NCBI GenBank assembly: GCA_022561215.1
Contig: JADFRQ010000001.1
Location: 62,001-126,000 of the forward strand
Origin: Chloroflexota bacterium
GTDB lineage: Bacteria; Chloroflexota; Anaerolineae; Anaerolineales; E44-bin32
Length of the DNA stretch: 64,000 bases
Reading direction: 5' to 3'
Shown here: in pieces, positions 1,063 to 41,400 of the stretch
Numbering within the stretch: the first letter of the stretch is position 1
How the letters are laid out: every line of letters starts with the position of its first letter
Position numbers and translations under genes: made by a program
The notes under the pieces: model-generated
Seen by the model: only the letters and a program-made list of their open reading frames with translations
Database searches by the model: none
What the model was told of the DNA's origin: nothing

Positions 1063-1191
1063 CGGTTACTCCAACTTGAATCCAATCCTGTGCACCTGTG
1101 TGCATGCCTTTGATTCATGAATAATGTATTCAGGGGGGAGAAAAAAGATGTGGGAAAAGGTACGTCAGTGGAATTCAAAATATGTTCAAGG

Positions 1192-1262
1192 CTGGGGCGC
1201 CAGGATTCGAACCTAGATTAACGGATTCAAAGTCCGCTGTGCTGCCGTTACACCACGCCCCA
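1192..1262 (-). tRNA. tRNA-Gln (TTG)
   Basis: A cloverleaf on the minus strand has a 7-bp acceptor stem (TGGGGCG with CGCCCCA), an anticodon stem CGGAC/ATCCG around a TTTGAAT-type loop giving anticodon TTG, and the T-arm GGTTCGAATCC. The unusual T-A first acceptor pair is typical of glutamine tRNAs. The 3' CCA is not encoded. Confidence 0.92.
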
Positions 1263-1322
1263 CTTGTACCGGCATTTAAATCGAATGCCCCGAATTGTAA
1301 CACAAGCGATAATCGACGAGAC

Positions 1323-2366
1323 TTACTTTTTCTCAGAATCTTCGCTGGCGAGATCGTCGGAAACAAGGCCAAGTTTTTGGGCCTGTTCGTACGTTAGGGC
1401 CTCACCATCAATCTGTGTTTGCGCCCCGGATTCGGACACTGCCTCCTCCCAAAATTCATTGGCGTCTACCTTATCATCCTCCAAAGCGATGGATTCGATA
1501 TCAATTTCTGGTTCCCCGTCGTCTGCGCTGTCCTCCCAATCTTCGCTCCGATCCGCCATACGGGAAGGCATTGCCGCGCCCATCATAGACAGATAATCAA
1601 GTAAATCGCCCACTGCACGACGTCCGTAGTGCACAACAGTTCCCATTTGTCCGGGCGCCTGCTTTCCACGATAAATAATCAGCAAACCGTAATACGCACC
1701 CACATTCGTGAGATAAATGTCATGGGTATCGCCATCGAAGTATTGAAAATTTGTAGGCAAAAGGGATTCGAGCAAAGCACTGACCTTGAGCCCTGATCGA
1801 AACGCCGTCATCAGAGCAGGCAATGCAGCTTCTAAATTGAGATCGATTCCCTGATCACTCCGGGCGATGATATTGCCCCTATCGTCGAGCAGCATGATCG
1901 CTTCTGCCCCAAGATCGGCCTGCATTCTTGTGAGGCGGCCGATCATGCGATGCATCAATTCGTCAAATATTTTAACGGGAGAAGAAGGAATTTCAGAGAG
2001 AACCAGCGCGCGTTCCACGGCTTCCAAAAAGTAATTTGTCTTGATTGGCTTCGGGATAAACGCCACAACCCCAAGGGATTCCGCTCGTTCTCGTGCTTCC
2101 TCTGAGGGATGCCCGGTGATAATAATTGCTCTTGCACTGGGATTGAGTTCTCTGGCCTTCTCGATGAGTTCCAAACCCGTCATACCCGGCAATTTCAGAT
2201 CCGTTACCAATAAATCAATGGGGCCACGCATCAGCTCGGCAAGCGCCTCTTCACCCGATGGCACATCGACGACAACGTACTCGCGGCCAGAAAACTCGAG
2301 GCTCGAGCGTAACATCCTGCTTACCTGACGTTGATCGTCCACCAATAATATTCGCGAAGCGCTCAC
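1323..2366 (-). CDS. Response regulator with C-terminal roadblock/LC7-like domain
   Basis: Residues 1-125 form a receiver domain: ILLVDDQ holds the acidic pocket, LLVTDLKLPGMTGLELI carries the phosphoacceptor Asp, and FIPKPI carries the conserved Lys. Residues about 135-260 resemble a roadblock/LC7 (MglB-type) fold, seen in LGAEAIMLLDDRGNIIARS and the following predicted strands. The last 80 residues are acidic and low in complexity. There is no DNA-binding output domain, so output is probably by protein contact, for instance with a small GTPase. No histidine kinase or MglA-like GTPase lies nearby. The start is GTG at 2366 with AAGGA upstream. The receiver call is secure; the roadblock call rests on pattern resemblance. 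Confidence 0.75.
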   Translation of the reverse strand: MSASRILLVDDQRQVSRMLRSSLEFSGREYVVVDVPSGEEALAELMRGPIDLLVTDLKLPGMTGLELIEKARELNPSARAIIITGHPSEEARERAESLGVVAFIPKPIKTNYFLEAVERALVLSEIPSSPVKIFDELMHRMIGRLTRMQADLGAEAIMLLDDRGNIIARSDQGIDLNLEAALPALMTAFRSGLKVSALLESLLPTNFQYFDGDTHDIYLTNVGAYYGLLIIYRGKQAPGQMGTVVHYGRRAVGDLLDYLSMMGAAMPSRMADRSEDWEDSADDGEPEIDIESIALEDDKVDANEFWEEAVSESGAQTQIDGEALTYEQAQKLGLVSDDLASEDSEKK

Positions 2367-2405
2367 AGCTTTTCCTTAACCAGCTTTACACTCACAATTA
2401 TCGCG

Positions 2406-3410
2406 CTATTCAACTCTCCAGCAAGCCACAAAATGTTCTGGGGATACTTCGATAAATCTTGGTTTGCTCGCGGAGCAATGATCCATAACAGCAGGGCATC
2501 GAGGGTGAAATCTGCACCCCGCAGGTGGGGTCATTGCGCTGGGCAGTTCACCCCTGAGAATGATGCGCTGTCTGCGATAGGTGGGATTGGGGACCGGAAT
2601 TGCGGACATGAGCGCCTGGGTATAAGGATGAAGAGGATTGGCGAATAGTTCTCTCTTCGGGGCTAGCTCAACGATCTTCCCCAAATACATCACTGCCACG
2701 CGGTCGGCAATGTGTTCGACGACACCTAGATCATGGGCAATGAAGAGAATGGTCAGATTAAATTCATCTTGGAGATTTTTGAGGATATTCAACACCTGCG
2801 CCTGGATAGAAACATCCAATGCCGAGACCGGTTCATCGGCTACAATAAATTTTGGCTTTAGGGCAATAGCCCTGGCGATGCCAATGCGCTGCCGCTGACC
2901 GCCCGAAAATTCATGCGGAAACCTATTGAAATGGGTTTCTTCGAGACCCACTTTTTTCAATAGGTCGATGACGATTGCATACCTCTCATCCTTGTTGCGA
3001 ATGCCATGAATTCTTAATCCTTCACCTATTGATTCTCCGATCGTCATGCGCGGATCAAGCGCTGAGGAGGGATCCTGGAAGATGATTTGCATATTTCTGC
3101 GCATCTCCTTTAATTCCCCAGTTCCCAAATTCCCCAAATCGATCCCCTCGAAGTACACTGATCCGGAGGTGGGCTCCAGCAAGCGCAGCAGTGTATGACC
3201 CAGCGTTGTTTTTCCACAGCCCGATTCTCCTACCAAAGCGAGCGTTTCGCCTTTGCGGACTTGGAAATGTACCCCGTCAACGGCTTTCACCCACCCCACG
3301 ACACGTTGAGTAATCCCGCCACGAATTGGAAAATATTTAACCAAATTCTTGACCTCAACCAGCACATCACCATTGTGAATTTCGATTGAGTGGTCGCTCG
3401 GCTCGAACAT
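2406..3410 (-). CDS. oppF: Oligopeptide/dipeptide ABC transporter ATP-binding protein, OppF type (copy 1)
   Basis: Cytosolic ATPase that energises peptide import with OppD at an OppBC pore. Walker A is GESGCGKT, the ABC signature is [14 protein letters not shown], Walker B is FIVADEP and the H-loop is [10 protein letters not shown]. The C-terminal oligopeptide-binding-protein-type extension contains GCRFHPRCP, a Cys-rich motif that in this family can hold an Fe-S cluster. I prefer the ATG at 3410 (MFEPSDHS), with GAGGGA 6 bases upstream, to a TTG further upstream at 3443. It follows the oppD copy ending at 3464 and is probably co-transcribed. '[10 protein letters not shown]' near the N-terminus is typical of OppF. 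Confidence 0.88.
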
Positions 3411-3463
3411 ACATTCCCTCGTCTGGCAATGGATCAGATTCAATGAACAAATAAAGGAAGGGG

Positions 3464-4495
3464 CTACACGTCAATTGGCGCCCTGTGATCGTCCTTATCC
3501 TGGTATAACCAACAACGCACATAATGATCTGGCTTGATCTGGATTAAATCCGGCTCATATTCTGTACAAATTTGCAGTTCGTACTCAACACGCGATCTAC
3601 AGCGCGGTGCGAAACGGCATCCGGCAGGTAAATTAATCAAATTGGGGACATTTCCAGGAATAGCATTCAGACGCTCTGCAGATCTTCCCGGAATGGGCAT
3701 AGAAGCCATCAAACCGGTCGTGTAAGGGTGCATTGGCTTATCAAAAAGCGACACGACATTCGTTTGTTCCACGATAGCGCCGGCGTACATTACGGCGACA
3801 CGATCCGCCATCTCGGCAATGACACCGAGATCATGTGTGATCAAGATTACGGATGTGTTCCTACTCGTACGCAGTTCCCTCAGTAAGTCAAGAATTTGAG
3901 CTTGAATGGTGACATCGAGCGCCGTGGTTGGCTCGTCCGCGATGAGTAGCTCAGGAACTGTCGCCAGTGCCAGGGCAATCATCACGCGCTGAGCTTGTCC
4001 CACTGACAGCTCATGTGGATAAGCGTTAATTTTTTCCTCGGCATCCGAAATTCCTACCGTCTTGTAAAGCTCAATCGTGCGCTGCCAGGCTTCTTCTTTT
4101 TCCATCTTCCAATGAATCATTAGAACTTCCGCAACCTGAGCACCGCCCGTAAACACCGGATTCAGTCTCGAGAGCGGCTGCTGAAAGATCATGGAAATCC
4201 TTTTTCCTCGCAGATTGTTCATTTTCTCTTCGGTTAGTTCATGCAACGCGATTCCCTCAAAATACACTTCACCAGCGACAATTTTTCCCGGCTCTTCAAT
4301 CAGCCGCAATATGGATAATGCAGTTACAGTTTTTCCGCAGCCCGATTCACCCACCAATCCGAAGATTTCACCACTTCGGACATTAAGATCGACGCCATCT
4401 ACAGCCTTTACCACACCCTGTTCGGTGAAAAAATAAGTTTGCAGGCCGCGCACATCGAGCAAATAATCGGAGCGATCGAAAGAAGATATTGCCAC
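3464..4495 (-). CDS. oppD: Oligopeptide/dipeptide ABC transporter ATP-binding protein, OppD type (copy 1)
   Basis: Partner ATPase of the OppF just downstream. Walker A is GESGCGKT, the signature region [14 protein letters not shown] is slightly divergent from the usual SGGMRQR, Walker B is LLIADEP, and the switch is [13 protein letters not shown]. The C-terminal [12 protein letters not shown] includes the family Cys motif. The 343-residue length is normal. The start is GTG at 4495 with AAGGAGG about 11 bases upstream. The divergent signature (SVGQAQ) is visible directly and differs from copy 2 at 11763-12767, so the two pairs are paralogues, not recent duplicates. Confidence 0.87.
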
Positions 4496-5141
4496 CTGTA
4501 GAAGCCCTCCTTGCTATTTCTCTGATAATTCTACTCAATTGGCCTTGCGCTCGGCTGGAAACTGAACCAAACCTAGCCAATTTTCTGCATGTTGATCTGC
4601 AGCGTTACAAAGGGGCAATGTGCCTGGCATGCAGCGCCTACGTAAATATTTGTGCCCGTGATGAGGTAAAGTTGTTCAATTTCCCACCCATTTTCCACGC
4701 TGCTTTTGTTGCTGACATGCCACAGAAAGTGACTGGTAAACCTGAGTGACCAAATCTGAGATCTTCCGCCGATCCCAACCCGCGCAGCTCTGGTCTATTC
4801 AGGTAGCTTATCCGACCAACATTTTAGATGATCGAAAAGGTTGTCGTCCAAGAAAATGCTTGAACAGCAATAACGCGCGCGTAGAACTCGGGCTCGACAG
4901 TGCAGAAGCACGTACTAAACCCGGCTGACTGCAAGCAATAGAAAAAGGGAAACATTGCTCAACGAGGGGATATCAGTTTGTCACGCGTGCAAGATAGGGT
5001 AATAGGTATTGCAAGACGACCACGGGGTTATAGAGCGTATTCACGCATCTCTCGGCTGTTCAGGAAACCGAAACAACATGCGACTTTCTACAGCCACATG
5101 CCCGGGAGGTCAAATTTTTCTGCGCAATATGTGGGATTCAA
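4496..5141. other. Gene-free stretch upstream of oppD copy 1
   Basis: About 650 bases without a convincing coding region on either strand; the short open frames lack Shine-Dalgarno sequences and recognisable motifs. It should carry the promoter for the oppD/oppF pair, but I could not identify clear -35/-10 boxes, repeats or a terminator. Confidence 0.5.
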
Positions 5142-5489
5142 TTAAGCAACGCCCATTTGTAGTGACAATCGCTGCAGGATATCTTGCTTGGCCATTAATA
5201 TCATCAGATTGGACGATCGCGAGGTAGCGAATTCCGTCGATAACGAATACGTTAGTGGCTGATCCGCAGGCCCTATGAGGACATTGTCAACCAGCCAGTG
5301 CAGGAGCACCGGAAGAAGGCGTATTGCCTTCCATATCGCCGTTGGATCTCCGCCGAGAGAGGCCGCAGTTCGAAGCAAACGCTGCTTTTCACCCTCGCCC
5401 GGCTGGCTTACTGAAGAAATCCAGTTCTTAAGCATGCGACCAATCGTTGCATCCAAAGGATCCGCACCTTCTAATTCATGATAGTTCAT
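5142..5489 (-). CDS. Small hypothetical protein coupled to the ECF sigma factor
   Basis: This 115-residue protein's ATG overlaps the last 14 bases of the sigma factor gene, with GAGGTG 4 bases upstream, so translation is probably coupled. No HxxxCxxC zinc anti-sigma motif, signal peptide or clear membrane helix is visible. The centre (LLPVLLHWLVDN) is hydrophobic but short. By position it is a candidate anti-sigma or sigma-modulating protein, but nothing in the sequence proves this. A gene of unknown function is the safe reading. Confidence 0.55.
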   Translation of the reverse strand: MNYHELEGADPLDATIGRMLKNWISSVSQPGEGEKQRLLRTAASLGGDPTAIWKAIRLLPVLLHWLVDNVLIGPADQPLTYSLSTEFATSRSSNLMILMAKQDILQRLSLQMGVA

Positions 5490-6072
5490 ACAACACCTCT
5501 TTTGCGAAATCCTTCTGCAATCCTAACTTCCTTTTAAGGCTTTGACGCCCGTAATGCAACCTTGATTTAACTGTACCAACTGGGATTCCGAGAATTTTAG
5601 ATATTTCTTGTATAGGCATATCGTTTATATAGTAGGAGACAATCACCACACGTTGTGCATTGGGCAATGACGCGACGGCTTGCTGAACAATTTGCCATTC
5701 TTCGCTTACGCGCAATGAAGATTCCGAAGTGATGCTCCGTTCACGCGATAACCACTCCGCCATATCTTTGAGCGCCCTCCACCATCGCTTCCTACGTTTT
5801 ATCCATGTGTAGGCCAAATTCGTAGTCACTCGATATAGCCATGGTTCAAGTGGACGCTGGGGATCAATTCGATGCGCAAATCGGTGCAGGCGGAGAAATG
5901 TATCTTGCAAGAGATCTGCTGCTGCGCTCTCATCGGAAGTGACCGCCAACGCAGTGCGATATACCATTTGGCGATGGCGATCAAATAAATCCCCTAATGC
6001 CTCGAGATCTCCACCCTGAAGACGAAGTACAAGCTCTCGATCTCGAGTTTGACTGCCAGAGATTTTTCTCAA
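5476..6072 (-). CDS. ECF-family RNA polymerase sigma factor (1)
   Basis: This 198-residue protein has sigma-70 region 2 near residues 20-95 (DLFDRHRQMVYRTALAVTSD, then AAADLLQDTFLRLHRFAHR) and region 4 near 130-185 (VASLPNAQRVVIVSYYINDM, then IPVGTVKSRLHYGRQSLKRK). Regions 1 and 3 are absent, as in ECF factors. It directs RNA polymerase to a small regulon. The start is TTG at 6072 with GGTGAG 7 bases upstream. The small partner gene at 5142-5489 overlaps its 3' end. It lies between the ATPase and permease parts of the Opp region, all on the minus strand, but spacing gives no proof that it controls them. Confidence 0.9.
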   Translation of the reverse strand: MRKISGSQTRDRELVLRLQGGDLEALGDLFDRHRQMVYRTALAVTSDESAAADLLQDTFLRLHRFAHRIDPQRPLEPWLYRVTTNLAYTWIKRRKRWWRALKDMAEWLSRERSITSESSLRVSEEWQIVQQAVASLPNAQRVVIVSYYINDMPIQEISKILGIPVGTVKSRLHYGRQSLKRKLGLQKDFAKEVLYELS

Positions 6073-6646: not shown

Positions 6647-7591
6647 TCACTCGCGCCCACGCATCATCGGATCGAGGGCATCGCGGAGGCCATCACCGAA
6701 GAAATTAAAGGCGATCATGGTAAGCGTGATGGCGATTCCGGGTGCCAGGGCGAGATGGGGCAACGTTCGCATGGCCCGCCAACCCTCCGCTAACATCCCT
6801 CCCCAACTCGGCACAGGCGGTTTTACGCCCAAACCGATAAAGCTCAATGTTGATTCTACCAAAATGAGTCCCGGAATACTCAATGTCAGCCATATAACGA
6901 TGGGACCAATCGTGTTCGGTAGGAGATGCCGGGACATGATGCGAAATGGCGATGCCCCTAGGGCCACCGCGGCTTCTACAAATTCCTTCTCGCGCATCGA
7001 CAAGAATTGCCCGCGCACAAGGCGGGCGACATTAAGCCAGCTCACAAGCCCCAGGGCGACAAACAAACCCACCATGATCAGACCCGTACTCGAGTTCGGT
7101 GGAATAATAAGCATCATTAAGATAATAAACAACAGTGTCGGGAATCCGAACATGAGATCGACGAAACGCATCATCAGATCATCAACCCAGCCCCCAAAAT
7201 AGCCCGAAATTGCGCCATAGGTTACGCCGATCAGCATAGCAGTGAATGAACCTATAAAGGCTACGCCGAGAGAAACTCGTGATCCAAATATGATTCGCGT
7301 GAAAATATCTCTGCCCAGTTTGTCGGATCCAAAGAAATGTTCCGCAGATGGCGTTTCTCGAGTCGATTGAAAATTCGGTTCATCGCGCCCATAAGGCGTA
7401 ATCAACGGTGCAATTATTGCGGCAACCGCGAGGGCAATAATGTAAATGGCGGAGACTGTCGCCACCTTGTTCTTTAACAAGCGATTAAGTGTATCGCGCA
7501 CCATGCTGATTCTCGGTCGCTCCAGGATATCGGCATCGAGAATGATTTTCTCCGTGGGACCGAGCTGCTCGCCTCTTACCTCAACTGTCAT
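6647..7591 (-). CDS. oppC: Oligopeptide/dipeptide ABC transporter permease, OppC type
   Basis: Inner-membrane permease of about 314 residues. It has an N-terminal helix (SAIYIIALAVAAIIAPLI), the periplasmic FGSDKLGRDIFTRII segment typical of OppC/DppC, and five further membrane helices. The cytoplasmic EAA loop is EAAVALGASPFRIMSRHLLP, which contacts the OppD/F ATPases. I place the start at the ATG at 7591 (MTVEVRGE), because AGGAG lies 8 bases upstream; a TTG at 7621 also keeps the frame. It follows oppB by about 50 bases and is last in the SBP-oppB-oppC unit. Confidence 0.9.
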   Translation of the reverse strand: MTVEVRGEQLGPTEKIILDADILERPRISMVRDTLNRLLKNKVATVSAIYIIALAVAAIIAPLITPYGRDEPNFQSTRETPSAEHFFGSDKLGRDIFTRIIFGSRVSLGVAFIGSFTAMLIGVTYGAISGYFGGWVDDLMMRFVDLMFGFPTLLFIILMMLIIPPNSSTGLIMVGLFVALGLVSWLNVARLVRGQFLSMREKEFVEAAVALGASPFRIMSRHLLPNTIGPIVIWLTLSIPGLILVESTLSFIGLGVKPPVPSWGGMLAEGWRAMRTLPHLALAPGIAITLTMIAFNFFGDGLRDALDPMMRGRE

Positions 7592-7645
7592 AAACTTGGC
7601 TCCTATCGCAACTATCGACAATCAACAGTCGCATTTAACTTCAAA

Positions 7646-8605
7646 TTAGTAGCGGATCCTTGGATCGAGAACACCATAAAGAATATCGACGACAAGATTG
7701 GCGATGACGAGAACGCTTGAATAAATCAATATCGTACCCATGATGAGAGAGTAATCGCGATCGGTTACCGCCGTAATAAAAAATTTTCCGATTCCCGGTA
7801 TTGCAAATATAAGTTCAACAAAGAAGGTGCCCGTGAGCCATGCGGCCAGAAGAGGACCCAGGACCGTGATTACGGGGATTAACGAATTTGGCAATGCGTG
7901 GCGGGCCAAAACGAATCTTTCCTTCAATCCCTTCGCTCTGGCGGTGCGGATATAATCCTGCCCGAGGGTTTCCAAGACACTCGCGCGTGTCAATCTGGCG
8001 ATAAACGCCATCCCACCCGTTCCCAGTGTGATAACCGGCATCACCATTTGCTTCCAAGAATCACCCCAACCGTAAACTGGCAGCCAATGCAATGTCAAGG
8101 AAAAGAGCAGGATCATCAACAAGCCGAGCACAAAATTGGGGATGCTTATGCCCAATGTTGTAACCAACATTGCGGCATGATCGGGCAGCTTATTGCGATA
8201 GAGCGCAGAAACGACTCCCAGTGGAATTCCAACACCAACCGCTATAAAAAAAGATAAAAGTCCTAATTGCGCCGAAATCATAACCGGTGTGTTCAGAGGA
8301 TCATCCCAGAAATCATAGCCAAAAAGAAGCTGATTGACGGTGAAATCAATTTGTCGTAAGGAAGGGCCAAAATCAAATTGAAAGACCAGTTTGGTCATAT
8401 AGGTGATGTACTGCTCGACCGGCGGCCGATCGAGACCATACTCGGCCTCCAAGCGCCTCTGGATCTCAGGCGCGCGCGGCCTTCCGCCGGCATCAGAACC
8501 AAACGGCCCCCCTGGAACCAGCTGCATGAACGTAAAGGTGACAACAGAAATGAGGAAAATAACGATGATCGATCGCACCAATCGATTGACAATGAATGTG
8601 AACAT
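7646..8605 (-). CDS. oppB: Oligopeptide/dipeptide ABC transporter permease, OppB type
   Basis: This 319-residue integral membrane protein starts with the OppB-type helix MFTFIVNRLVRSIIVIFLIS followed by TFTFMQLVPGGPF. It has several later helices and the EAA-type loop TARAKGLKERFVLARHALPN. With OppC it forms the translocation pore. The ATG at 8605 has AAGGAG upstream. An insertion-like region of about 40 residues (YITYMTKLVFQFDFGPSLRQ and following) sits in the periplasmic part, as in many OppB proteins. It is co-oriented with the binding protein gene upstream and oppC downstream. Confidence 0.9.
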   Translation of the reverse strand: MFTFIVNRLVRSIIVIFLISVVTFTFMQLVPGGPFGSDAGGRPRAPEIQRRLEAEYGLDRPPVEQYITYMTKLVFQFDFGPSLRQIDFTVNQLLFGYDFWDDPLNTPVMISAQLGLLSFFIAVGVGIPLGVVSALYRNKLPDHAAMLVTTLGISIPNFVLGLLMILLFSLTLHWLPVYGWGDSWKQMVMPVITLGTGGMAFIARLTRASVLETLGQDYIRTARAKGLKERFVLARHALPNSLIPVITVLGPLLAAWLTGTFFVELIFAIPGIGKFFITAVTDRDYSLIMGTILIYSSVLVIANLVVDILYGVLDPRIRY

Positions 8606-8680: not shown

Positions 8681-8715
8681 AATAGCTGTGTGACGCTAGG
8701 CGCCACACAGCTATT
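8681..8715 (-). other. Perfect intercistronic hairpin between binding protein gene and oppB
   Basis: The 12-base arms AATAGCTGTGTG (8681-8692) and CACACAGCTATT (8704-8715) are exact inverted copies with an 11-base loop. It lies 20 bases after the binding-protein stop codon and 76 bases before oppB. No strong T-run follows on the minus strand, so it is more likely an mRNA 3'-end stabiliser or attenuator than a full terminator. Such an element would let the binding protein be made in excess over the permeases. Confidence 0.6.
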
Positions 8716-8734: not shown

Positions 8735-10555
8735 CTAGAAACCACCACCACCGATGACGTTACATTCTTCGAGCGTAGCCAAGTAGGTTGCCCACTCGAC
8801 GTTAACCGTGCGGACATCGATACCCAAATTCGACTCCCACATGGCCTCAACCGCTTCCAAAATTTCCTGGTTGGTGCCACCTTTGTTGTACCAGAGCTCG
8901 ATGGTGATCGAGCCAGCATCCTCGATTCCTTCCGCGTTCATGTACTCGTTGAGGTAGCCCATGGCTGCATCTAAATCGAATACATAGCCCACAGCATCCC
9001 CCTGAAAACCGAAGATTTCAGGCGGGATTATGCCGGTAGCATCTAGTTTCCAAGGAGTCTGGGAGACATTGTCGATGATCGAACGTTTGTCAATCGCCGA
9101 AGCAAGCGCCCTGCGGAACGAGATATTATCCGTGTGCCGGGCGGATGTATTGAGACCCATGTAGTACACGCCTGGTCGTGGGGTGACGATAAATTCATCC
9201 GTTCCCACCAACCTGGGGATGTCTTCCGACGGCATGCCTGCAGCGTTATAGTCAAGCTCCCCATTTTCGAAAGCTGCTAATGCGGTGGCAGGTTCCTGGA
9301 TAATGGATACTTCGATTCTCTCAATCTGGACATTGGCTGCGTCCCAATAGAGCGGATTCTTTTCGAAGACCAAGTTACTGCCAGGATTTCGCTCAACGAG
9401 CACATAGGCGCCGTTGCTGACGAAGTTGCCGGGCTGGGTCCAGGCATCGCCGTGTAAACCAATCACATCCAAACGTACGGGGTGGAAGGTGCTGAAGGCC
9501 AGGATGCTGTCGAAGTAGGACAGCGCGTCCGTCAACGTCACCTGGAGGGTGAAGTCATCCAAGGCGACGACCGCCTCGAGTACATCGGTGTCACCGGAGT
9601 TGTAGTCCGCTGCACCGACGATGTCGAACATCACGTAGGCATAGTCATTTGCCAGATCTGGGCTAAGCAGTCGGCTTATTCCATCGACAAAGTGTTGTGC
9701 GGTTACCGGCACGCCATCTGACCACATGGCATCTTCGCGTAGATGAATCGTGAACACGGTGCCATCATCCGACACATCGAAGCTCGTCGCGGCAAGGGGT
9801 GAAATCGTCCCATCCGCATTGAACTTGTAGGGAGCATCGATCAATTGATAGATCATGAACGACGAAGTCGTATCCGTCGAGCGCTGAATATCCAGCGTAG
9901 GAATCGCAGCGCCGACGGCAGTTCGGAATGTGGTTGCGCCAGTATTGAAGCTCCACTGTGCAAGACGGGGAGCGCCAAATGGTGCGAAAATAAATTCCAC
10001 ATCCGTGGAAACCAGCGTCGTGCGATCGTAGTGCTGGATGGGAATGACGGCCACAACATCTTCTACAACGATCTTTTCTGCTTCCTGCCAGGTAGCGGCA
10101 CGGCTTTCCAGATCGGTGTTGCGGTAAGCGGACTCGGTCAAAGCCTCAAACTGTTCTACAAGCTCTGGGTAGTTGTGCTGCCAGAAGGTGTATTGGAAGT
10201 CCGAGTTTGGACCAAAAACGGTGTCCACTATGTTTCCTGCATCTGCCCAGTCCATTACCCAGCCCATGCGGTAGGCGTTGTAGGAGCATTCTGCGGATCG
10301 GGAAGTGCTGAGCTCGGATTGCAGATCACCGATGTTATCGTTGAGTTCCGATAGTTCGGACTCAAGTCCGGCGATCGCTTCATCGCTCAAGCCACCCGAC
10401 GATTGTGCATCAGCAAGCTCTGCTTCGAGTGCTGCGATGCGATCTTGCGCTGCTGTATCAACAACAGGCTCCGCTGCTCCACCACCGCATGCCGCCAACA
10501 GAAAGCTGGTCATGATAATGGCTGAGACGAGGTATTGCCATCTCTTTTTAGACAT
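8735..10555 (-). CDS. Oligopeptide-binding lipoprotein (SBP family 5) with circularly permuted domain order
   Basis: A 606-residue lipoprotein with a signal peptide ending LLAAC (lipidated Cys23) and a predicted coiled coil at about 36-86 (heptads such as ALEAELADAQ). Residues 91-201 then contain what is normally the C-terminal end of a family-5 binding protein (YRMGWVMDWADAGNIVDTVF; AEKIVVEDVVAVIPI). Only after residue 208 comes the usual N-terminal start (TLDIQRSTDTTSS), running to the normal penultimate segment SNLGIDVRTVNVEWATYL. The gene ends soon after at ECNVIGGGGF. The order is therefore permuted, with the dipeptide EC at both breakpoints (residues 89-90 and 597-598). It should deliver peptides to OppBC encoded just downstream. 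Function is likely retained, since the frame is open throughout. Confidence 0.85.
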   Translation of the reverse strand: MSKKRWQYLVSAIIMTSFLLAACGGGAAEPVVDTAAQDRIAALEAELADAQSSGGLSDEAIAGLESELSELNDNIGDLQSELSTSRSAECSYNAYRMGWVMDWADAGNIVDTVFGPNSDFQYTFWQHNYPELVEQFEALTESAYRNTDLESRAATWQEAEKIVVEDVVAVIPIQHYDRTTLVSTDVEFIFAPFGAPRLAQWSFNTGATTFRTAVGAAIPTLDIQRSTDTTSSFMIYQLIDAPYKFNADGTISPLAATSFDVSDDGTVFTIHLREDAMWSDGVPVTAQHFVDGISRLLSPDLANDYAYVMFDIVGAADYNSGDTDVLEAVVALDDFTLQVTLTDALSYFDSILAFSTFHPVRLDVIGLHGDAWTQPGNFVSNGAYVLVERNPGSNLVFEKNPLYWDAANVQIERIEVSIIQEPATALAAFENGELDYNAAGMPSEDIPRLVGTDEFIVTPRPGVYYMGLNTSARHTDNISFRRALASAIDKRSIIDNVSQTPWKLDATGIIPPEIFGFQGDAVGYVFDLDAAMGYLNEYMNAEGIEDAGSITIELWYNKGGTNQEILEAVEAMWESNLGIDVRTVNVEWATYLATLEECNVIGGGGF

Positions 10556-10761: not shown

Positions 10762-11766
10762 CTAAACTTGCAGACGTTCTTCGGCTGCGAAACATGCAAT
10801 ATCATGCCTCGGAAGCAAATCCTTTAATTGGGGCTCTTCTTCAAAACAACGATCAAAAGCTATGGGACAGCGAGTATTGAAGTTGCAGCCCGTTGGCGGA
10901 TCTGCCGGGCTCGGCAGATCACCTTCCAAAATGATGCGCTGCCTCTGATCCTCAACAATCGGGTCCGGCACAGGCACTGCGGATAAGAGCGCTTGTGTAT
11001 AGGGATGCTGCGGGTTGTCGTAAATGTCTTCAATCGACCCCAGTTCAACGATCTTCCCCAAATACATGACGGCCACACGATCGCAGATATAACGTACCAT
11101 GCTCAGGTCATGGGTAATAAATAAATAGGTAAGGTCAAATTCATCCTGTAAATCCTCAAGCAAGTTGACAACCTGGGCTTGAATGGAAACGTCAAGTGCA
11201 GAGATTGGTTCGTCGGCAACAATAAATGAGGGATTTAAGGCAAGGGCGCGCGCGATCCCAATTCGCTGGCGCTGCCCGCCTGAAAATTCGTGTGGATAAC
11301 GCGTGCCCAGTAAGGGATTAAGGCCGACACGCTCCAAGAGCTGCGCAACGCGTTGGTCGAGCTCTGTCCCCCTGGCAATTTTATGGATGATAAACGGCTC
11401 ACCCACAATCGCATTCACCGTCATGCGAGGATTGAGTGAGGAATAGGGATCCTGAAAAATGATTTGCATCCGGGCCCGCATACTTCTCAGATCATGTCCA
11501 CTGAGCCCTGAGAGATCAGTCCCCTCGAAGAGAACCGTGCCCGAAGTTGGCTTATGCAAATTTAATATTGTCCGACCAAGCGTGGATTTGCCGCATCCAC
11601 TTTCACCTACGAGGCCAAGCGTTTCCCCTTTAATGATCTGAAGCGTGACATCGTCAACAGCACGAACATTGCCAACAACTCTACGCAATAAACCTTGGGT
11701 GACGGGAAAATATTTCTTGAGATTGGTTATTTCGACCATTGCCTGATTTCCATTATCGGACATCAT
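10762..11766 (-). CDS. oppF: Oligopeptide/dipeptide ABC transporter ATP-binding protein, OppF type (copy 2)
   Basis: A 334-residue ATPase with Walker A GESGCGKS, signature [19 protein letters not shown], Walker [15 protein letters not shown] and switch [14 protein letters not shown]. The C-terminal GCNFNTRCP motif follows. The [19 protein letters not shown] start is typical of OppF. Its ATG overlaps the oppD copy 2 stop (ATGATG), so the two are translationally coupled. It ends about 200 bases before the permuted binding-protein gene, so this pair, rather than copy 1, may belong to the adjacent OppBC pore. Confidence 0.9.
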
Positions 11767-12767
11767 CCCAGCACCTCATGCGTTGCTGCCTCATGCACAT
11801 CCACCCAACAGGCAATTTCGTGACCGGGTGCAATTTCTAAAAGAGGTGGATTTTCAGCCACACATTTCTCAATTGAGAAGGGACAGCGCACATAGAACGG
11901 ACACCCTTTTGGGAGCATCGTAAGATCAGGAGGCCGGCCTACGATCGGAATTAATCGCGAGCCGGACTCTCGTTTATCTACCCTGGGGAGAGAATTAAGC
12001 AACCCCAATGTGTAGGGGTGGCGAGGGTCAGCGAAGACGCGATGTTTGCTAGCTCTCTCAACGATAAAACCAGCATACATTACCATTAAGCGCTCTGCTA
12101 ACCCTGCCATGATGCCCAAATCATGCGTAATCCAGATAATCGCCATTCCCAGCCGTTCCCGCAACCTCCCCACGAGATCAAGTATCTGAGCCTGGATGGT
12201 CACATCCAAGGCTGTTGTGGGCTCATCTGCAATGAGTATGCTCGGAGCGCAAGAAAGAGCCATAGCGATCATGGCTCTTTGACGCATTCCTCCGGAAAAT
12301 TCGTGTGGATAGGAATTAAGGCGATCGGAAGCTTGCGGGATCCCCACCAGATCGAGCATCTCCGCCGCACGTTCTCGAGCTTGCTCTCCATGCATATCCA
12401 TATGCAGGTTTAGCGCCTCGGTGATTTGTTTGCCGATTGTCATTACGGGATTAAGCGATGTCATTGGATCTTGGAATATAATCGCAATCTCCCCACCGCG
12501 AATCTTGCGCATTTCATCTTCGGATATCTTTAGCAGATCGGTACCCTGATATAGGATTTCCCCTCCTGCAATTTCACCGGGAGGTGTGGGGATTAAGCGC
12601 ATAATCGATAATGCATGCACACTTTTCCCACAGCCGCTCTCCCCGACGATCCCAATTGTCTCACCCTCATGCAAGTCGTACGATACACCATTAACGGCAT
12701 GCACCGTCCCGTCGTCCGTGTGAAAGCGCGTAACAAGATTAACTAATTCAAGGATTTTGGGGGGCAA
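11763..12767 (-). CDS. oppD: Oligopeptide/dipeptide ABC transporter ATP-binding protein, OppD type (copy 2)
   Basis: A 334-residue ATPase with Walker A GESGCGKS, signature [14 protein letters not shown], Walker [15 protein letters not shown] and switch [13 protein letters not shown]. The C-terminal [11 protein letters not shown] is the family Cys motif. The start is TTG at 12767 with GAGGAG 8 bases upstream. It is first of the oppD-oppF pair and overlaps oppF by 4 bases. Its canonical signature motif contrasts with the divergent one in copy 1. Confidence 0.9.
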
Positions 12768-14123: not shown

Positions 14124-16049
14124 CTACTCGTTCTCACAGCGATCACCTGCTGCATACTGCTCGATATTCCATAACACACTAAAAGAAGTCGGATCCGGAT
14201 CAGGACCGCATATTTCAATTCCAAAAATCACGATACGCGGCCGGTTAAAAAGCGGGATGGAGGGAATTTGGGCGCGAAAAATCCGTTGTGTATCTTCGAT
14301 CGCTTTTTGATAGATTTCCCCTCCCGGGGGGGATAAGAGTTGGGTTCGACAGGCGCGATCATAATCTAAGTCACGAAAACCGGTGGCATTAATCCCAAAA
14401 AGGTTATCTACCGTTGGCACTTCAAATCCTGCGAACATCTCGCAGGGGGGACTGGCATAAACCGGCCACGCCCAACCTACGGTTTCAAACCTTCCCCCGA
14501 ATATTGGTCCATTGGGCCACGGTTCAAATAATTCGCTCGAATCTCCAAATTCAGGCATGAAACCAATCCCACAATTGGCAAGATCCTCTTGAATTTTTTT
14601 CGTTAAGACCTCGTGCAGGGCACCGCCAGTGGTTAAGAATTTGACTTCGAAAGGGGTGCCATCTCGGATGCCGAAAATTGCGTTGGCAGTACGTGGAGAG
14701 GAGGGATCATCGTCGTCATCGATCCATCCGATTTCCTCCAGCAGCCTATTCGCCTGTGCAACAGAGAGTGCGGTAAGAGAGGGATCATCAACATACAAAG
14801 GATGAGTGGATGGAAGATAGGAATCAGGCACGGGTGAGAGACCAAACAGAAGTTCGTCCACGATACCTTGGCGATCAATGCAGGCTTCAAATGCCCGGCG
14901 GGCTCTGAGATCGCTAAATGCCCGGGAGCCTTCTGCACCTAACGTATTGAAATCAATGCGCTCCATCACAGCACCCGGCTGAGACTTAATCTGAAGACGA
15001 TTGTTTGCCGCAAGGTCAAGGGCGCTGGGCCAGAACGTAAAGGGAAATGCGGATTCATCAAGCACATCGCATTCCCCAGTTAACACTTGCTCGAGTGCAG
15101 ATACATAGTCAGATCCCAGAAACCGAAATCTCAAAAGATCAAAAAAGGGCAAATCCTCACCAGAGCGGAAGTAGCTCTGCGATTTGACCAGAACAATTTC
15201 TTTCCCGGACTCCCATGATTGGATGATGTACGGACCCCATCCGAGAGGAGTTCTAGCAGCTTCGACATTTACGAGTAGTTCCGAGGCAGCGAATTGCCCT
15301 AGAATATGCTCGGGAAGGGGTGACCAAAAATTCGATTCAAATTCAGGATCAAGAAACCCGGGGATACCAACCCATTGCGTTCGAAGCTTATCCTGAGCAG
15401 TGTAACTACTCGTACGCTGCACAAGATATTTTGTGGTGGGTGTATTCGTATCGCCATCCATTTTAAATGAAAAGACAGAATCGCTTGCCTTGAGTTCCTC
15501 ACCATCCGACCAGCGAACATCGGGAAGGAGCTCGAACTCGGCTACGATGCGATCCATCGCAACATCACCCTCCGTATAAAACGTGATGCAATCGGGATCG
15601 GAACAATCAGAGGGCAGATAAGGTTTCCGCGATGCCAATCGATCAGGGACGAGGGTTTGCGGATTAAGGTAAACCTGCCCGTCACTTACGATGACACTTT
15701 CAACGCGCGCGCCGCCGTTATCAAATGAAGGGAGCGAGGCCAAAATTACAGGCTCATATCGATGGGAGCGCAAATCGATGGGACCATCATACAAAGCCTG
15801 AAGGATGGTATCCGCCTCCGGCCGCGTGTTGGCGTAGAGATAGAGAGAGCTAGGCTCTCTTCCCAAACACACCACCAAGGTTCTAGGAGGCGAGGTGGGA
15901 ATGAGGGTGGGAGCAATAATCTTGGGGGTATTTGTCGCCGCGGGGACATTGGTAAGGGGAATCTCGATTTCCGGGGATGTTCCGCAAGCTGCCAGCACGA
16001 ATACACCTATTATTGGAAACGCTAGTACAGTGATGGGTGACGCACGCAT
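14124..16049 (-). CDS. Extracellular peptide-binding lipoprotein, SBP family 5 (second)
   Basis: A 641-residue protein with signal peptide ending FVLAACG (lipidated Cys at about 22), then a Pro/Thr-rich linker (TNVPAATNTPKIIAPTLIPT) common in cell-surface lipoproteins. The family-5 core begins near residue 55 (TLVVCLGREPSSLYLYANTR) and includes VRWSDGEELKASDSVFSF, GPYIIQSWESG and RRAFEACIDRQGIVDELLFG. It ends with IPSIPLFNRPRIVIFG. Several Cys pairs (for example DCSDPDC) suggest disulphides. Here the domain order is normal, unlike the binding protein at 8735-10555. It probably captures peptides or another solute for an Opp-type importer. Substrate cannot be read from the sequence. Confidence 0.85.
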   Translation of the reverse strand: MRASPITVLAFPIIGVFVLAACGTSPEIEIPLTNVPAATNTPKIIAPTLIPTSPPRTLVVCLGREPSSLYLYANTRPEADTILQALYDGPIDLRSHRYEPVILASLPSFDNGGARVESVIVSDGQVYLNPQTLVPDRLASRKPYLPSDCSDPDCITFYTEGDVAMDRIVAEFELLPDVRWSDGEELKASDSVFSFKMDGDTNTPTTKYLVQRTSSYTAQDKLRTQWVGIPGFLDPEFESNFWSPLPEHILGQFAASELLVNVEAARTPLGWGPYIIQSWESGKEIVLVKSQSYFRSGEDLPFFDLLRFRFLGSDYVSALEQVLTGECDVLDESAFPFTFWPSALDLAANNRLQIKSQPGAVMERIDFNTLGAEGSRAFSDLRARRAFEACIDRQGIVDELLFGLSPVPDSYLPSTHPLYVDDPSLTALSVAQANRLLEEIGWIDDDDDPSSPRTANAIFGIRDGTPFEVKFLTTGGALHEVLTKKIQEDLANCGIGFMPEFGDSSELFEPWPNGPIFGGRFETVGWAWPVYASPPCEMFAGFEVPTVDNLFGINATGFRDLDYDRACRTQLLSPPGGEIYQKAIEDTQRIFRAQIPSIPLFNRPRIVIFGIEICGPDPDPTSFSVLWNIEQYAAGDRCENE

Positions 16050-36587: not shown

Positions 36588-38387
36588 GTGCGTGCAACCA
36601 TAGAACAAATCCTTAACACCCATAAAAGTCAATCGCCGGATGCACTCGCCATTACGGCGCCCGATGGTTTCGCACTCACGTATGCGGGACTTCATCGTCA
36701 TGTAGTTGCTATCGCCACTCAGATTGCCGATGCTGGATATGGAAGTAATGATCGCATTGCTTGTATTTTGCCCAATGGCCCCGAACTGGCGATTACATTC
36801 CTGGGGATTTCGTCCTGCGCGACTTTTGCTCCGCTCAACCCGGCATATACCGAAAGCGAGCTCGAGTACTATCTCACGGACTTGGCCGCAAGTGCAATTG
36901 TGATGGCTCCCAATGGTGATTCGCCATCAAGGACTGTCGCCCGAAAATTGAAAATTCCGGTTATCGATTCGGTGGTCAATTCAGGTGACGAGTTAGAACA
37001 AGGGACGCCCGCCAATCGTCTTCCGGTATTTTCGGACCCCGATGACATTGCCCTTGTTCTGCATACTTCAGGCACAACATCAAAACCAAAGATCGTCCCC
37101 TTAAAAGTTCAAAATCTCCTTGATTCGGCCGAAAATATTGCGAAGACATTACGCTTGAATTCCGCCGATATCTGCCTGAATGTGATGCCTCTATTTCATA
37201 TTCACGGTTTATGTGCCGCGATTCTGGCAACCATCACATCCGGGGGGACCGTGGTCTGCACGGAGGGGTTCTCTGCTGCGCACTTTATGGATTGGCTCCT
37301 GTTGCAGCGCGCCACTTGGTACACTGCCGTGCCTTCGATGCATCAGTCGATATTAGCACATAAATCGAGCGTGCAAACGCCGACCAACGAGATAAAATTG
37401 CGATTTATCCGCTCATCATCAGCCCCTCTGCCCCCGAACGTAATGCAAGGATTAGAAGAATACTTCGATGTTCCCGTGATTGAAGCGTATGGTATGACGG
37501 AAGCGGCCCATCAAATGACGAGCAATCCGCTTCCTCCGTTGGAAAGAAAAGCTGGCTCCGTCGGCATTGCCTCCCATATAGATGTCGCCATCATGTCCAT
37601 TGAAGGGGAAGATTTTCTGCCCATGAATGAACCAGGTGAGATCGTCATTAAAGGTTCCAGTGTAATAACGGCCTATTCGAACAATCAACAAGCGAACCGC
37701 GATGCTTTTGTACAGAAATGGTTCCGCACCGGCGATTTAGGGTACCTTGATAGCGACGGCTACCTCTTCATAACTGGCCGAATAAAGGAAATCATCAATC
37801 GAGGAGGGGAGAAAATTTCACCACGCGAAGTTGAGGAAACGCTGCTGCATCATCCGGCTGTGCGGCAGGTGGTCGCTTTCGCCATTCCCCACGAGACGCT
37901 GGGTGAGGAAATAGCGGTAGCTGTGGTTGTTCAAGATAAGAACGTATCTTCGAAAGAACTCCAGAAATTCGTCGATCTCCACCTGGCGCAATTCAAAGTC
38001 CCCCGACAAGTCATCTTCCTGGATGAAATACCTAAGGGACCCACAGGGAAAGTCCAAAGAATTGGTCTGGCAGAAAAATTGGGCTTGGATGAGATTCGCG
38101 TGGAGGAACAGCGAAAAGATGATAACTATATTGCTCCGCGTAATCCCGTTGAGGAAAGAATTGTGGAAATTTGGCAAGAGGTGTTGGGAATACGTCAGAT
38201 CAGCGTGCATCATAGGTTTTTGGATCTCGGGGGAGATTCACTTTCAGCAATGCGCCTAGTATCCTTAATTCGAGATAGACATGATATCGAACTATCGCTA
38301 ATTGATTTTTTCGACGCAGGGACGGTTGCAGAACAAGCGCATATAATGCAAGAATTGCTGCTCCAAGAAATAGACAATTCTGTCTAG
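36588..38387 (+). CDS. Acyl-adenylating enzyme (AAE3/oxalyl-CoA synthetase-like) fused to a carrier domain
   Basis: 599 residues. The ANL adenylation domain spans about 1-510: LHTSGTTSKPKIVPL (P-loop near 160), MPLFHIHGLCAAILATI, IEAYGMTEAAHQMTSNPLPP, WFRTGDLGYLDSDGYLFITG and the catalytic-Lys region IPKGPTGKVQR. The HIHG and MTEAAHQM motifs resemble plant AAE3/yeast Pcs60 acyl-CoA ligases rather than amino-acid A domains. A carrier domain follows, with DLGGDSLSAM holding the pantetheinyl Ser551. It probably activates a carboxylic acid and hands it to the condensation domains of the NRPS 36 bases downstream. The acid is unknown. The start is GTG at 36588 with GGAG about 10 bases upstream. Confidence 0.88.
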   Translation: MRATIEQILNTHKSQSPDALAITAPDGFALTYAGLHRHVVAIATQIADAGYGSNDRIACILPNGPELAITFLGISSCATFAPLNPAYTESELEYYLTDLAASAIVMAPNGDSPSRTVARKLKIPVIDSVVNSGDELEQGTPANRLPVFSDPDDIALVLHTSGTTSKPKIVPLKVQNLLDSAENIAKTLRLNSADICLNVMPLFHIHGLCAAILATITSGGTVVCTEGFSAAHFMDWLLLQRATWYTAVPSMHQSILAHKSSVQTPTNEIKLRFIRSSSAPLPPNVMQGLEEYFDVPVIEAYGMTEAAHQMTSNPLPPLERKAGSVGIASHIDVAIMSIEGEDFLPMNEPGEIVIKGSSVITAYSNNQQANRDAFVQKWFRTGDLGYLDSDGYLFITGRIKEIINRGGEKISPREVEETLLHHPAVRQVVAFAIPHETLGEEIAVAVVVQDKNVSSKELQKFVDLHLAQFKVPRQVIFLDEIPKGPTGKVQRIGLAEKLGLDEIRVEEQRKDDNYIAPRNPVEERIVEIWQEVLGIRQISVHHRFLDLGGDSLSAMRLVSLIRDRHDIELSLIDFFDAGTVAEQAHIMQELLLQEIDNSV

Positions 38388-38423
38388 CGAATCACAATCC
38401 AGACGATATTTACAAAATTAATT

Positions 38424-41400
38424 GTGCGAGGAAATGTGGAAGACAATAGTAGGCGGGCGGCGAGTTGGGATGATTTGTCGGCTGAGGAGCGAATGTATCT
38501 TGAAGGCCGACTGAAAAATCGTCCTGGCACGGCCATCAATTCAAGCAGCTTGAAGAAACGGCCGACTCCTGATTCTGCCCCGCTAGCTTTTGGCCAAGAA
38601 CAGCTCTTCTTTCTCGACCAGTTACACCCTGGATCTGCAGCGTACAATCGTCGTTGGGGTCTCGAACTTGTCGGGAAATTAAATCGTACGGCTTTGATGG
38701 ACAGCATTCTTGAGCTCGTAAAGCGACACGAGGTCCTGCGAATAAATGTTGCGGTCGTCGAGGGACGTTCCCGGGCCATCATCCATCCGTATCAATCATT
38801 CGAGGTGCCCTTTACAGATTTTTCTTCATCTTCGAGCAAAGTGGCGAGTTACCAGGCCCATGATTTCGCAGTTAAGGAATCACAACGCCACTTCAATTTA
38901 AGCAGTGATCGGCTTTTTCGGCCTCATTTGATCCGCATTGAGCCAACACACCACGTGCTCCTGCTCAACACACATCATATAATATTTGATGGATGGTCTG
39001 AGCGGATCTTTTTTCGCCAGCTCGCAAATTTCTACAATAGCTATCAATCCAATCACATTCCATCGGATCCATTTCCGCCCCTACAATTTCCAGATTTTGC
39101 ACACTTTCAGAGGAATAAAGTTTCAGGAGATCATCTCCAAAGCCTGAGCCGCTATTGGAAGAAACGCCTCCAAGACGGAGCGCCGTTCTTGAAACTGGCC
39201 ACAGATTATCCCCGACCCGCCTATCGAACGACACGCGGCGAGCGTATTTCGATGCATCTGTCTGCCCAGACAACTAATTCCCTGAAAGATTTGAGCCGTG
39301 CTACGGATGCAACACTCTTTATGACGCTGTTTGCAGCCTTCACTGTTCTGCTCTCAAAACTTTCCTCTCAGGATGACATCCTTGCCGGGGCAATTATTGC
39401 CGGTCGGAACTATGCCCAGCTGGAAGAAGTGATTGGTTTCTTCGCCAATACCCTCGTGCTGCGGACAGACCTTTCTGATGATCCCTCATTCTCACACCTC
39501 CTTCGACAGGTTCGAGAAACTTCTCTTGAGGCATATGACCATCAAGACATGCCCTTTGAAACCTTGGTTGAAATTTTAAATCCGCCTCGCAACCCATCCT
39601 ATACCCCGCTAATTCAAGCGACAATGCAATTAAGAAATTTGCCCGAATTCGAAGGCAAGCTTACGGGCATTCAAGTTAATAATTACGATTTGGGTTATCG
39701 TGAAGCGATATTCGATCTCAATCTGGGCATTGATGAGACCGCAGCAGGATTATCTTGCAAACTTCTTTACAACAACGATCTTTTTAGCGAATCCACTGCA
39801 AAGCGTATACTCCAGCAATATAAGAAGATAATAAATGTCGTAATTAGCAATCCCGGCACCGTTCTGTCGACAATTATCGACAACATACTCTCAATGGAGC
39901 AAACGAGCGATAGTCAAATTTTACGACCTCGATCAAGCAAGCGAGTTTCAGAAACAAATTTGACACCGACACAATTACTTATGTGGACTGGTCAAAAGTT
40001 CCGACCTACTATTCCCCTATACAACCTGACATACGCTTTTACAATTCACGATCGACTCAATCCTCAAGCCTTTCGAGATGCATTTGGCACTTTGCTGTCT
40101 AAAAGCGATGCACTCCGAACCATAATTGAGGAAAAAGATTACGTTCCACATCAGAAAACCAGGACCAACTTAAAATTCGAGTTGCCAATCATTGATTTGT
40201 CCAATGAGAGGGATGCGGATGGTGCCGCGCAAGACTGGATAGAAGCGCATTATCAAAAAGTTTTTAATTTTGAAGAACGATTGTTCAACACGGCCTTACT
40301 AAAAATTACTGACGAACGCTGGATTTGGTATCTGAATCTCCATCATATTCTTTTCGACTTCAAGAGCATCGAATTGATCTTCCGCCGGATGGAGGAATAT
40401 TACAAATTAGCTTTGCAAGGGGATCTAATAAATATCCCGGAATTGCCTGCCTTTAGAGATTTTACGCATTGGGAAAAATCTATCCGATCGTCCCCTGATT
40501 ATCCCAGGATTGAGGCGTATTGGGATCAAAAATTTGCGCAGGGCATGGAACCCCTATCCTTTTATGGTCACCGTGCAATAAAAAGATCTACTATCGTACA
40601 TCGAAAATTTCTCATCCTGGGAGTTGAGCGGACCAAGAAATTGCGGCAGATGGCCGAGTCTCTCTTCTTTACCAAGACAAAAGATGCATCTCTTCTCAAT
40701 ATCTTTGTTGCGCTTCTCTTTGCTTTCATTCATCGATCAACCGGGATTCAAGACCTGTCCATCGCCATCCCGTTTCACAACAGAAGTAATGAGAAATTTA
40801 GGGAAACAATTGGGTTGTTAATGGAAATGCTCATCTTCAGAGTTAGCATCGAGCCCACAGATACTTTCAGCAGCTTAATTAAAAAAGTTACACTTGAAGC
40901 TTTGGAGACCCTCAAATACCGTAATTATCCAATGGCTAATACTTTATCCAAACGGGTCTACGAAGTTTATTTAAACTTTATGACTCCCGTTTTCTCTGAT
41001 TTTCTTGGTGCCGATGTAAATGTTGCGGATAAATACCGCGGCCATGACGAAGATTCCCTGGCAATCCAAATTCAGGATTACGAGGGGACTGGATCGTTGA
41101 AGATGCAGTTCGATTTTCATGGGGATGTCTTCCGGATAGACGATGAGAAAAGATCACTGGATCATTTTGAGCGGATTTTAGACGCCTTCCTAGAGAACCC
41201 GGATCAAAAGCTCAATCAAGTTGACCTTCTTTCGCTGGAGGAAAGAGAGCAAGTTCTCAGTGCGCCGAATGATACAGGTGCATATTTTCCGGAGAGCGCC
41301 ACAATTATTGAGCTGTTCGAAGAACAGGTACAGAAGACTCCTGAAAATACTGCCGTTTCCAGGGCCGGAGATTTAATCACCTACGCTGAACTAAATTCAA

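Follow-up and report, generated by a model that had tools for sequence, protein, structure and literature searches.

A conserved circular permutant of an OppA-type binding lipoprotein in a Chloroflexota Opp operon

Results

The stretch of DNA analysed here (the window, 64,000 nucleotides from a Chloroflexota bacterium) carries an Opp operon on its minus strand. Its genes encode an OppD-type ATPase (11763..12767), an OppF-type ATPase (10762..11766), a family-5 (OppA-like) substrate-binding lipoprotein of 606 residues (8735..10555), an OppB-type permease (7646..8605) and an OppC-type permease (6647..7621). The ATPases and permeases flank the binding-protein gene as the remaining four components of an importer and give it the two-permease, two-ATPase association of Opp/Dpp systems. 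The order OppD-OppF-SBP-OppB-OppC also surrounds the permuted genes of L039, L134 and L135, the context is partial in L038 and L136, and OppF likewise adjoins the gene of L011, a relative with normal chain order. Between the binding-protein gene and oppB lies a strong hairpin (8681-8715; 16-nt arms, 94% complementary, 3-nt loop), possibly a terminator or an mRNA-stability element that raises the binding protein over the permease. The operon is flanked on one side by a sigma factor gene overlapped by a small partner (5142-6072) and on the other by another family-5 binding protein, 641 residues long and in normal order (14124-16049); homologues of the sigma factor and of this other binding protein likewise adjoin the operon of L039. 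Elsewhere in the window (36588-43928) a small NRPS cluster encodes an adenylation-carrier protein and, after it, a condensation-adenylation-carrier-thioesterase protein of 1834 residues.

The binding-protein frame, whose limits had been given correctly in a preliminary description along with Glu-Cys dipeptides at residues 89-90 and 597-598, starts with ATG downstream of AGGAG and was characterized by Pfam and by PDB, profile and rotation alignments. All of its parts are on the minus strand. A signal peptide (10487..10555) ends in the lipobox LAAC (Cys23), recognized by its motif, and L039 shares this N-terminus. Residues 34-86 (10298..10456) form a spacer between the lipid anchor and the core. 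The preliminary description had seen a coiled coil here; AlphaFold2 predicts a two-helix hairpin (residues 34-53 and 58-86, pLDDT about 77-95 for the most part). The helical spacer is restricted to the window protein and its two nearest relatives, and the remaining proteins of this cut type instead possess the extended linker usual in Chloroflexota lipoproteins. The core begins at Cys90 (10286..10288) with segment Y (residues 90-205; 9941..10288), which closes a normal family-5 protein (OppA 418-511; profile positions 400-516). A seam of residues 205-209 (9929..9943), placed by alignment with normal-order relatives and almost free of linker, then joins the old C-terminus to the old N-terminus, and segment X (residues 206-598; 8762..9940), which opens a normal family-5 protein (OppA 32-414; positions 2-334 of 368 in SBP_bac_5), follows. 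The protein ends with Cys598 and the tail NVIGGGGF (8738..8764), a C-terminus of the form CN[AV]IGGGGF-stop that is common to it and its two nearest relatives.

The only Pfam domain found in the window protein is SBP_bac_5 (PF00496), with an E-value of 1.4e-66 and a score of 225.6 bits (cut-off 32.4); this match and full-length homologues that are all family-5 proteins argue against the Type I/cluster B (MglB) fold. Because the match covers just residues 251-595 (profile positions 2-334 of 368), it hides the rotation of the chain. Searches of the PDB with phmmer reveal it: residues 220-595 align with residues 32-414 of Bacillus subtilis OppA (8are) and residues 91-191 with 418-511 of the same chain, an exact seam that leaves just three OppA residues uncovered between the two matches, and in a second OppA structure (9rd1) residues 215-595 align with 20-404 and 91-183 with 408-492. 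On a 519-position profile built solely from normal-order relatives, the window protein reads 400-516 and then 5-406, with no core segment missing. In a rotation scan of the core against three normal-order relatives the best cut was at residue 213/214. Against L098 the score was 1211 at that cut, compared with 914 without rotation and a median of 880, and the unrotated alignment was discarded as distinctly poorer; once rotated, the window protein matches L098 over its whole length (50% identity, 494 aligned residues). The canonical family-5 chain order is thus absent and a full-length match requires rotation, while the complementary profile ranges indicate that all ancestral segments are kept in rotated order with the old termini joined. 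The permutation claimed in the preliminary description, including its assignment of residues 91-201 as the closing segment, is borne out by the OppA matches, the profile order and the rotation scan, and by these alignments the window protein is a family-5 member by descent, but permuted.

AlphaFold2 modelled the permuted chain with a mean pLDDT of 90.9 and a pTM of 0.81, from an alignment in which the seven permuted proteins were combined with normal relatives split into X and Y pieces; pLDDT fell below 50 only in the signal region, at residues 85-88 and in the last three residues. The model resembles MppA, OppA and DppE, and superposes on open MppA (4toz_B) with a Z score of 30.2 and an rmsd of 2.3 over 394 aligned residues (VIA-align). 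Structure aligners follow chain order and the comparison therefore covers residues 204-606, so that segment Y is placed on the basis of sequence and of model confidence. Within that range (Z about 30) the predicted fold is OppA-like, which suggests that it is kept despite the new termini. A protein with another arrangement, the type-E permutant L171, gave an acceptable model from 16 sequences (pLDDT 78.3, pTM 0.75).

A search of Chloroflexota genomes for the same arrangement, which we call type A, found it in seven, including that of the window, spread over four family-level groups. The order is shared with L039 from an Anaerolineales MAG (65% identity over residues 1-606), L038 from a Chloroflexi MAG (69% over 27-606) and, at lower identity, L092-L095. 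Among the three nearest proteins differences at third codon positions are about 2.5 times as frequent as at first and second positions. Calculated for the entire gene, dN/dS comes to about 0.05-0.15, or about 0.09-0.15 where it is computable, dS being close to saturation. Judged from these substitution patterns, the window gene and its nearest relatives are under purifying selection.

The position of the cut coincides with a pair of cysteines. In the normal-order proteins L011, L097 and L098 the corresponding region reads LDxCNN[ST]KE[ED]LAACEFNAYRMGW, with two cysteines around a nine-residue loop (Cys-x9-Cys), and similar Cys-loop-Cys arrangements of varying loop length occur in L099-L102, L105, L107, L012, L081 and L114, all of normal order, and in L096, which is permuted elsewhere. 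The window protein terminates in LEECNVIGGGGF directly before its stop codon and its core starts with SAECSYNAYRMGW. In the rotated alignment Cys598 and Cys90 superpose on the two ancestral cysteines, the first having become the C-terminal end of the permuted protein and the second its N-terminal end, and both are present in all seven proteins cut at this site (7/7). The two Glu-Cys dipeptides had previously been read as the scar of a tandem duplication. That reading is refuted: the ancestral cysteine pair explains the dipeptides, no direct DNA repeat joins the two junctions in the window gene, and the glutamate is not conserved, with QC, GC and SC in relatives. Since the chain is cut inside a cysteine-bounded loop and both cysteines are kept, a Cys90-Cys598 disulfide could still join the ends, and from the conservation of the pair it probably staples the new termini of the window protein. 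The cut lies near OppA residues 405-408, which we take to be in domain III; on that placement the lipid anchor would join the protein at its second lobe and not at domain I.

A query that spans the seam from old C-terminus to old N-terminus picks up permutants regardless of where they are cut. With this query and the ranges on the 519-column profile we distinguished at least six cut regions in family-5 binding proteins: about 97-131 (types B and E), 195-201 (type C), 250-283 (type G), 351-355 (type F), 400-407 (type A, the window gene) and 439-446 (type D). Among the matches listed, a seam-spanning match occurred in at least about 60 of the 400 Chloroflexota genomes sampled and in at least 11 of 199 Bacillota genomes, the latter including L173-L176, cut at 351-353, and L182, cut at about 277; the seam profile was derived from Chloroflexota permutants, so these counts are lower bounds and other phyla are possibly under-counted. 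With the same profile, and again among the matches listed, none of 200 Pseudomonadota genomes had a permutant. The single seam-spanning match there was rejected, as a stop separates two adjacent genes. Three of the Chloroflexota carriers (G798, G927 and G982) are listed as single-contig genomes.

Several of these proteins have unusual architectures. L127, L129, L130 and L131 (G438, G469, G501 and G478) place an amino-acid-type binding domain, SBP_bac_3 (PF00497), ahead of a circularly permuted SBP_bac_5 within one lipoprotein, an assignment made by Pfam scan for L127 and L130 and by common layout for L129 and L131. Type C permutants form the N-terminal part of very long frames in L108, L124 and L125 (G666, G629 and G692), and the frame of L124 also holds DUF11, CARDB and TIG domains, a surface-protein context in which a binding protein is unusual. 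Type F occurs in Chloroflexota in L145, L146, L151 and L157, and in the last three of these the signal is twin-arginine-like (RRDF); the genomes of the hosts (f77, 1.8-2.1 Mb) are listed as single contigs.

A 120-row tree, calculated with all proteins in canonical order, requires at least 11 changes of arrangement and at least eight changes between normal and permuted order, seven of them forced by well-supported branches. In this tree type B L096 groups with type A (98% SH-aLRT), a grouping that is weak in a more careful subfamily tree, and type G L182 groups with type D (100%). Larger trees place the trio L011, L097 and L098 as the normal-order branch closest to the A group; the subfamily tree leaves open the branching order of trio and A group, and monophyly of the A type is neither shown nor rejected there (p-AU 0.307). 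On the strength of these trees, the window gene is one of several independent permutations of family-5 proteins.

Two loci display arrangements relevant to how permutation might arise. In L148 (G063:C1, 1-3645) two family-5 genes of normal order, which share 68% identity, follow one another in the same frame; one TAA separates them, and its loss would fuse both genes. L121 (G252:C7:24000-31000, 1089-5009, minus strand) is a 1307-residue frame with two type-D units, 92% identical, joined by low-complexity linkers rich in Ala, Val and Glu; as it belongs to cut type D, it is not a direct intermediate for the window gene.

Discussion

We conclude that the window gene encodes a genuine, conserved circular permutant of an OppA-type lipoprotein. 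It is highly probable that this protein is the binding protein of the Opp importer encoded around it, that its chain was opened within a cysteine-bounded loop and that it represents one of several permutations in the family. The low dN/dS, the Opp operon and the confident AlphaFold2 model support the suggestion of the preliminary description that the lipoprotein is intact, and it is probably functional.

Could the changed order be spurious? The window genome is a draft of 126 contigs and tandem binding-protein genes exist in the phylum (L148), so a tandem pair or strain variants might have been stitched together in the wrong order during assembly or binning. We regard this as barely credible: the same order recurs at 65-69% identity in two assemblies with different contig naming (NODE and k87) and at lower identity in four further genomes, conservation extends to the reading frame, the seam and both cysteines, and the junctions are not linked by any DNA repeat. 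The order in seven genomes, together with purifying selection and the Opp operon, argues against an assembly error. The changed order and the odd tail GGGGF could also mark the decaying remnant of a duplicated gene that is open by chance, but this is scarcely more probable, since dN/dS is low, the tail is nearly invariant in three species, the core is complete (profile 400-516 plus 5-406), the operon is intact and the model is confident.

Two further alternatives accept the gene as real and differ in its structure or history. In a domain-swapped dimer segment Y would complete the core of a neighbouring molecule, an arrangement that may come more easily when the seam is short and the new ends are exposed, and that has been solved for a family-5 relative (8qlh); the confident monomer model (pTM 0.81) and a cysteine pair that would favour intramolecular closure make it quite improbable for the window protein. 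Somewhat less remote, though still unlikely, is a history in which the gene split within the Cys loop, the halves functioned while joined by the disulfide, and they were later fused again in the opposite order. The cut falls exactly between two conserved cysteines able to hold such halves together, yet separate X and Y genes did not come up incidentally in any of the genomes seen, whereas tandem genes and a tandem-fused double do exist in the phylum and clades with different cuts adjoin, the pattern expected if a single fused double had been trimmed in different ways.

We favor a model in which permutation arose in an ancestor common to the related Chloroflexota. The alignments show the ancestral C-terminus fused to the N-terminus and the chain reopened inside the second-lobe loop, which probably came about by way of a tandem-fused duplicate that was later trimmed. 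For the window gene, duplication followed by trimming is plausible. The duplication model of permutation predicts tandem or fused intermediates (PMC3320104), and differential trimming of a tandem-fused double is expected to yield neighbouring permutants with different cuts; L148 and L121 fit this route without proving it for the window gene. In the permuted protein a Cys90-Cys598 disulfide would close the gap and restore the ancestral covalent connection, in which case the core should fold and close on peptide as OppA does, and peptide binding by the window protein can be anticipated from the model. The lipid anchor and hairpin spacer would enter at the second-lobe loop and not at the canonical N-terminus. 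We lean slightly towards a broader proposal in which permutation has recurred in Chloroflexota and some Bacillota, at six or more places, through differently trimmed fused doubles, with the disulfide loop having made the cut in the window gene harmless.

In whole-core sequence, fold and Opp operon context the window protein is like OppA, MppA and DppA (family 5, cluster C, PF00496), and it has a lipoprotein signal of the kind common among monoderm bacteria; unlike OppA, MppA and DppA it has its closing segment first and its anchor at the second-lobe loop. PDB sequence searches with permutants of types A, E, F and G found no solved permuted family-5 structure, the best matches being canonical chains that align in pieces, and in the open-licence literature we found no paper on a permuted family-5 binding protein. 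Within these searches, we found no previous description of a natural circular permutant among the peptide-type (family-5) proteins. The nearest case is TpMglB-2 (Tp0684), a sugar-binding lipoprotein of Treponema pallidum that is circularly permuted and has been classified as "Type Ic / Cluster Bc" (PMC4990184). Like the window protein it is a natural permuted lipoprotein of an ABC importer, and it still binds ligand (PMC4990184). However, TpMglB-2 has a Type I/cluster B fold and its permuted part is poorly conserved and may derive from another gene (PMC4990184), whereas the window protein is of the peptide type, with a permuted part 41-50% identical to normal-order subfamily relatives, and the family-5 proteins have several cut sites within one family. 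Textbook examples of natural permutation, for which duplication intermediates have been proposed, are saposin/swaposin and permuted DNA methyltransferases (PMC3320104); these have other folds, and the candidate intermediates described here are tandem or fused binding-protein genes.

The authors of the TpMglB-2 study raised the possibility that permutation is an adaptation to membrane anchoring (PMC4990184). The window protein and many of the other permutants are lipoproteins. Binding proteins of Pseudomonadota are mostly free in the periplasm. No lipobox is present in the Bacillota type F proteins or, L122 excepted, in the single type D proteins, and re-anchoring thus cannot account for all permutations and is weakened as a general cause. 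Our data therefore point both ways, with the lipoprotein permutants and the lack of a permutant among the matches listed for 200 Pseudomonadota genomes in favor of the anchoring idea and the lipobox-free permutants opposed to it.

Judged across our alignments and trees, permutation recurs within the family-5 binding proteins, which was unexpected. In Pfam and NCBIfam the permutants pass as ordinary or partial binding proteins and their rotation goes unnoticed, a warning for annotation and structure pipelines. The cut in the Cys loop suggests an evolutionary rule, that a chain may be opened where a disulfide already holds its ends, and by the same token a design trick for biosensors built from binding proteins. 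Here a single family contains several permutations of independent origin alongside close relatives in normal order, genes in tandem and a fused double, so that the succession of events, like the choice of cut sites that are tolerated, becomes directly testable. If our proposal of recurrent permutation is correct, these proteins would constitute a natural permutant series of one fold, and the series could reveal which openings of the chain evolution has accepted and whether the moved membrane tether is the selected feature.
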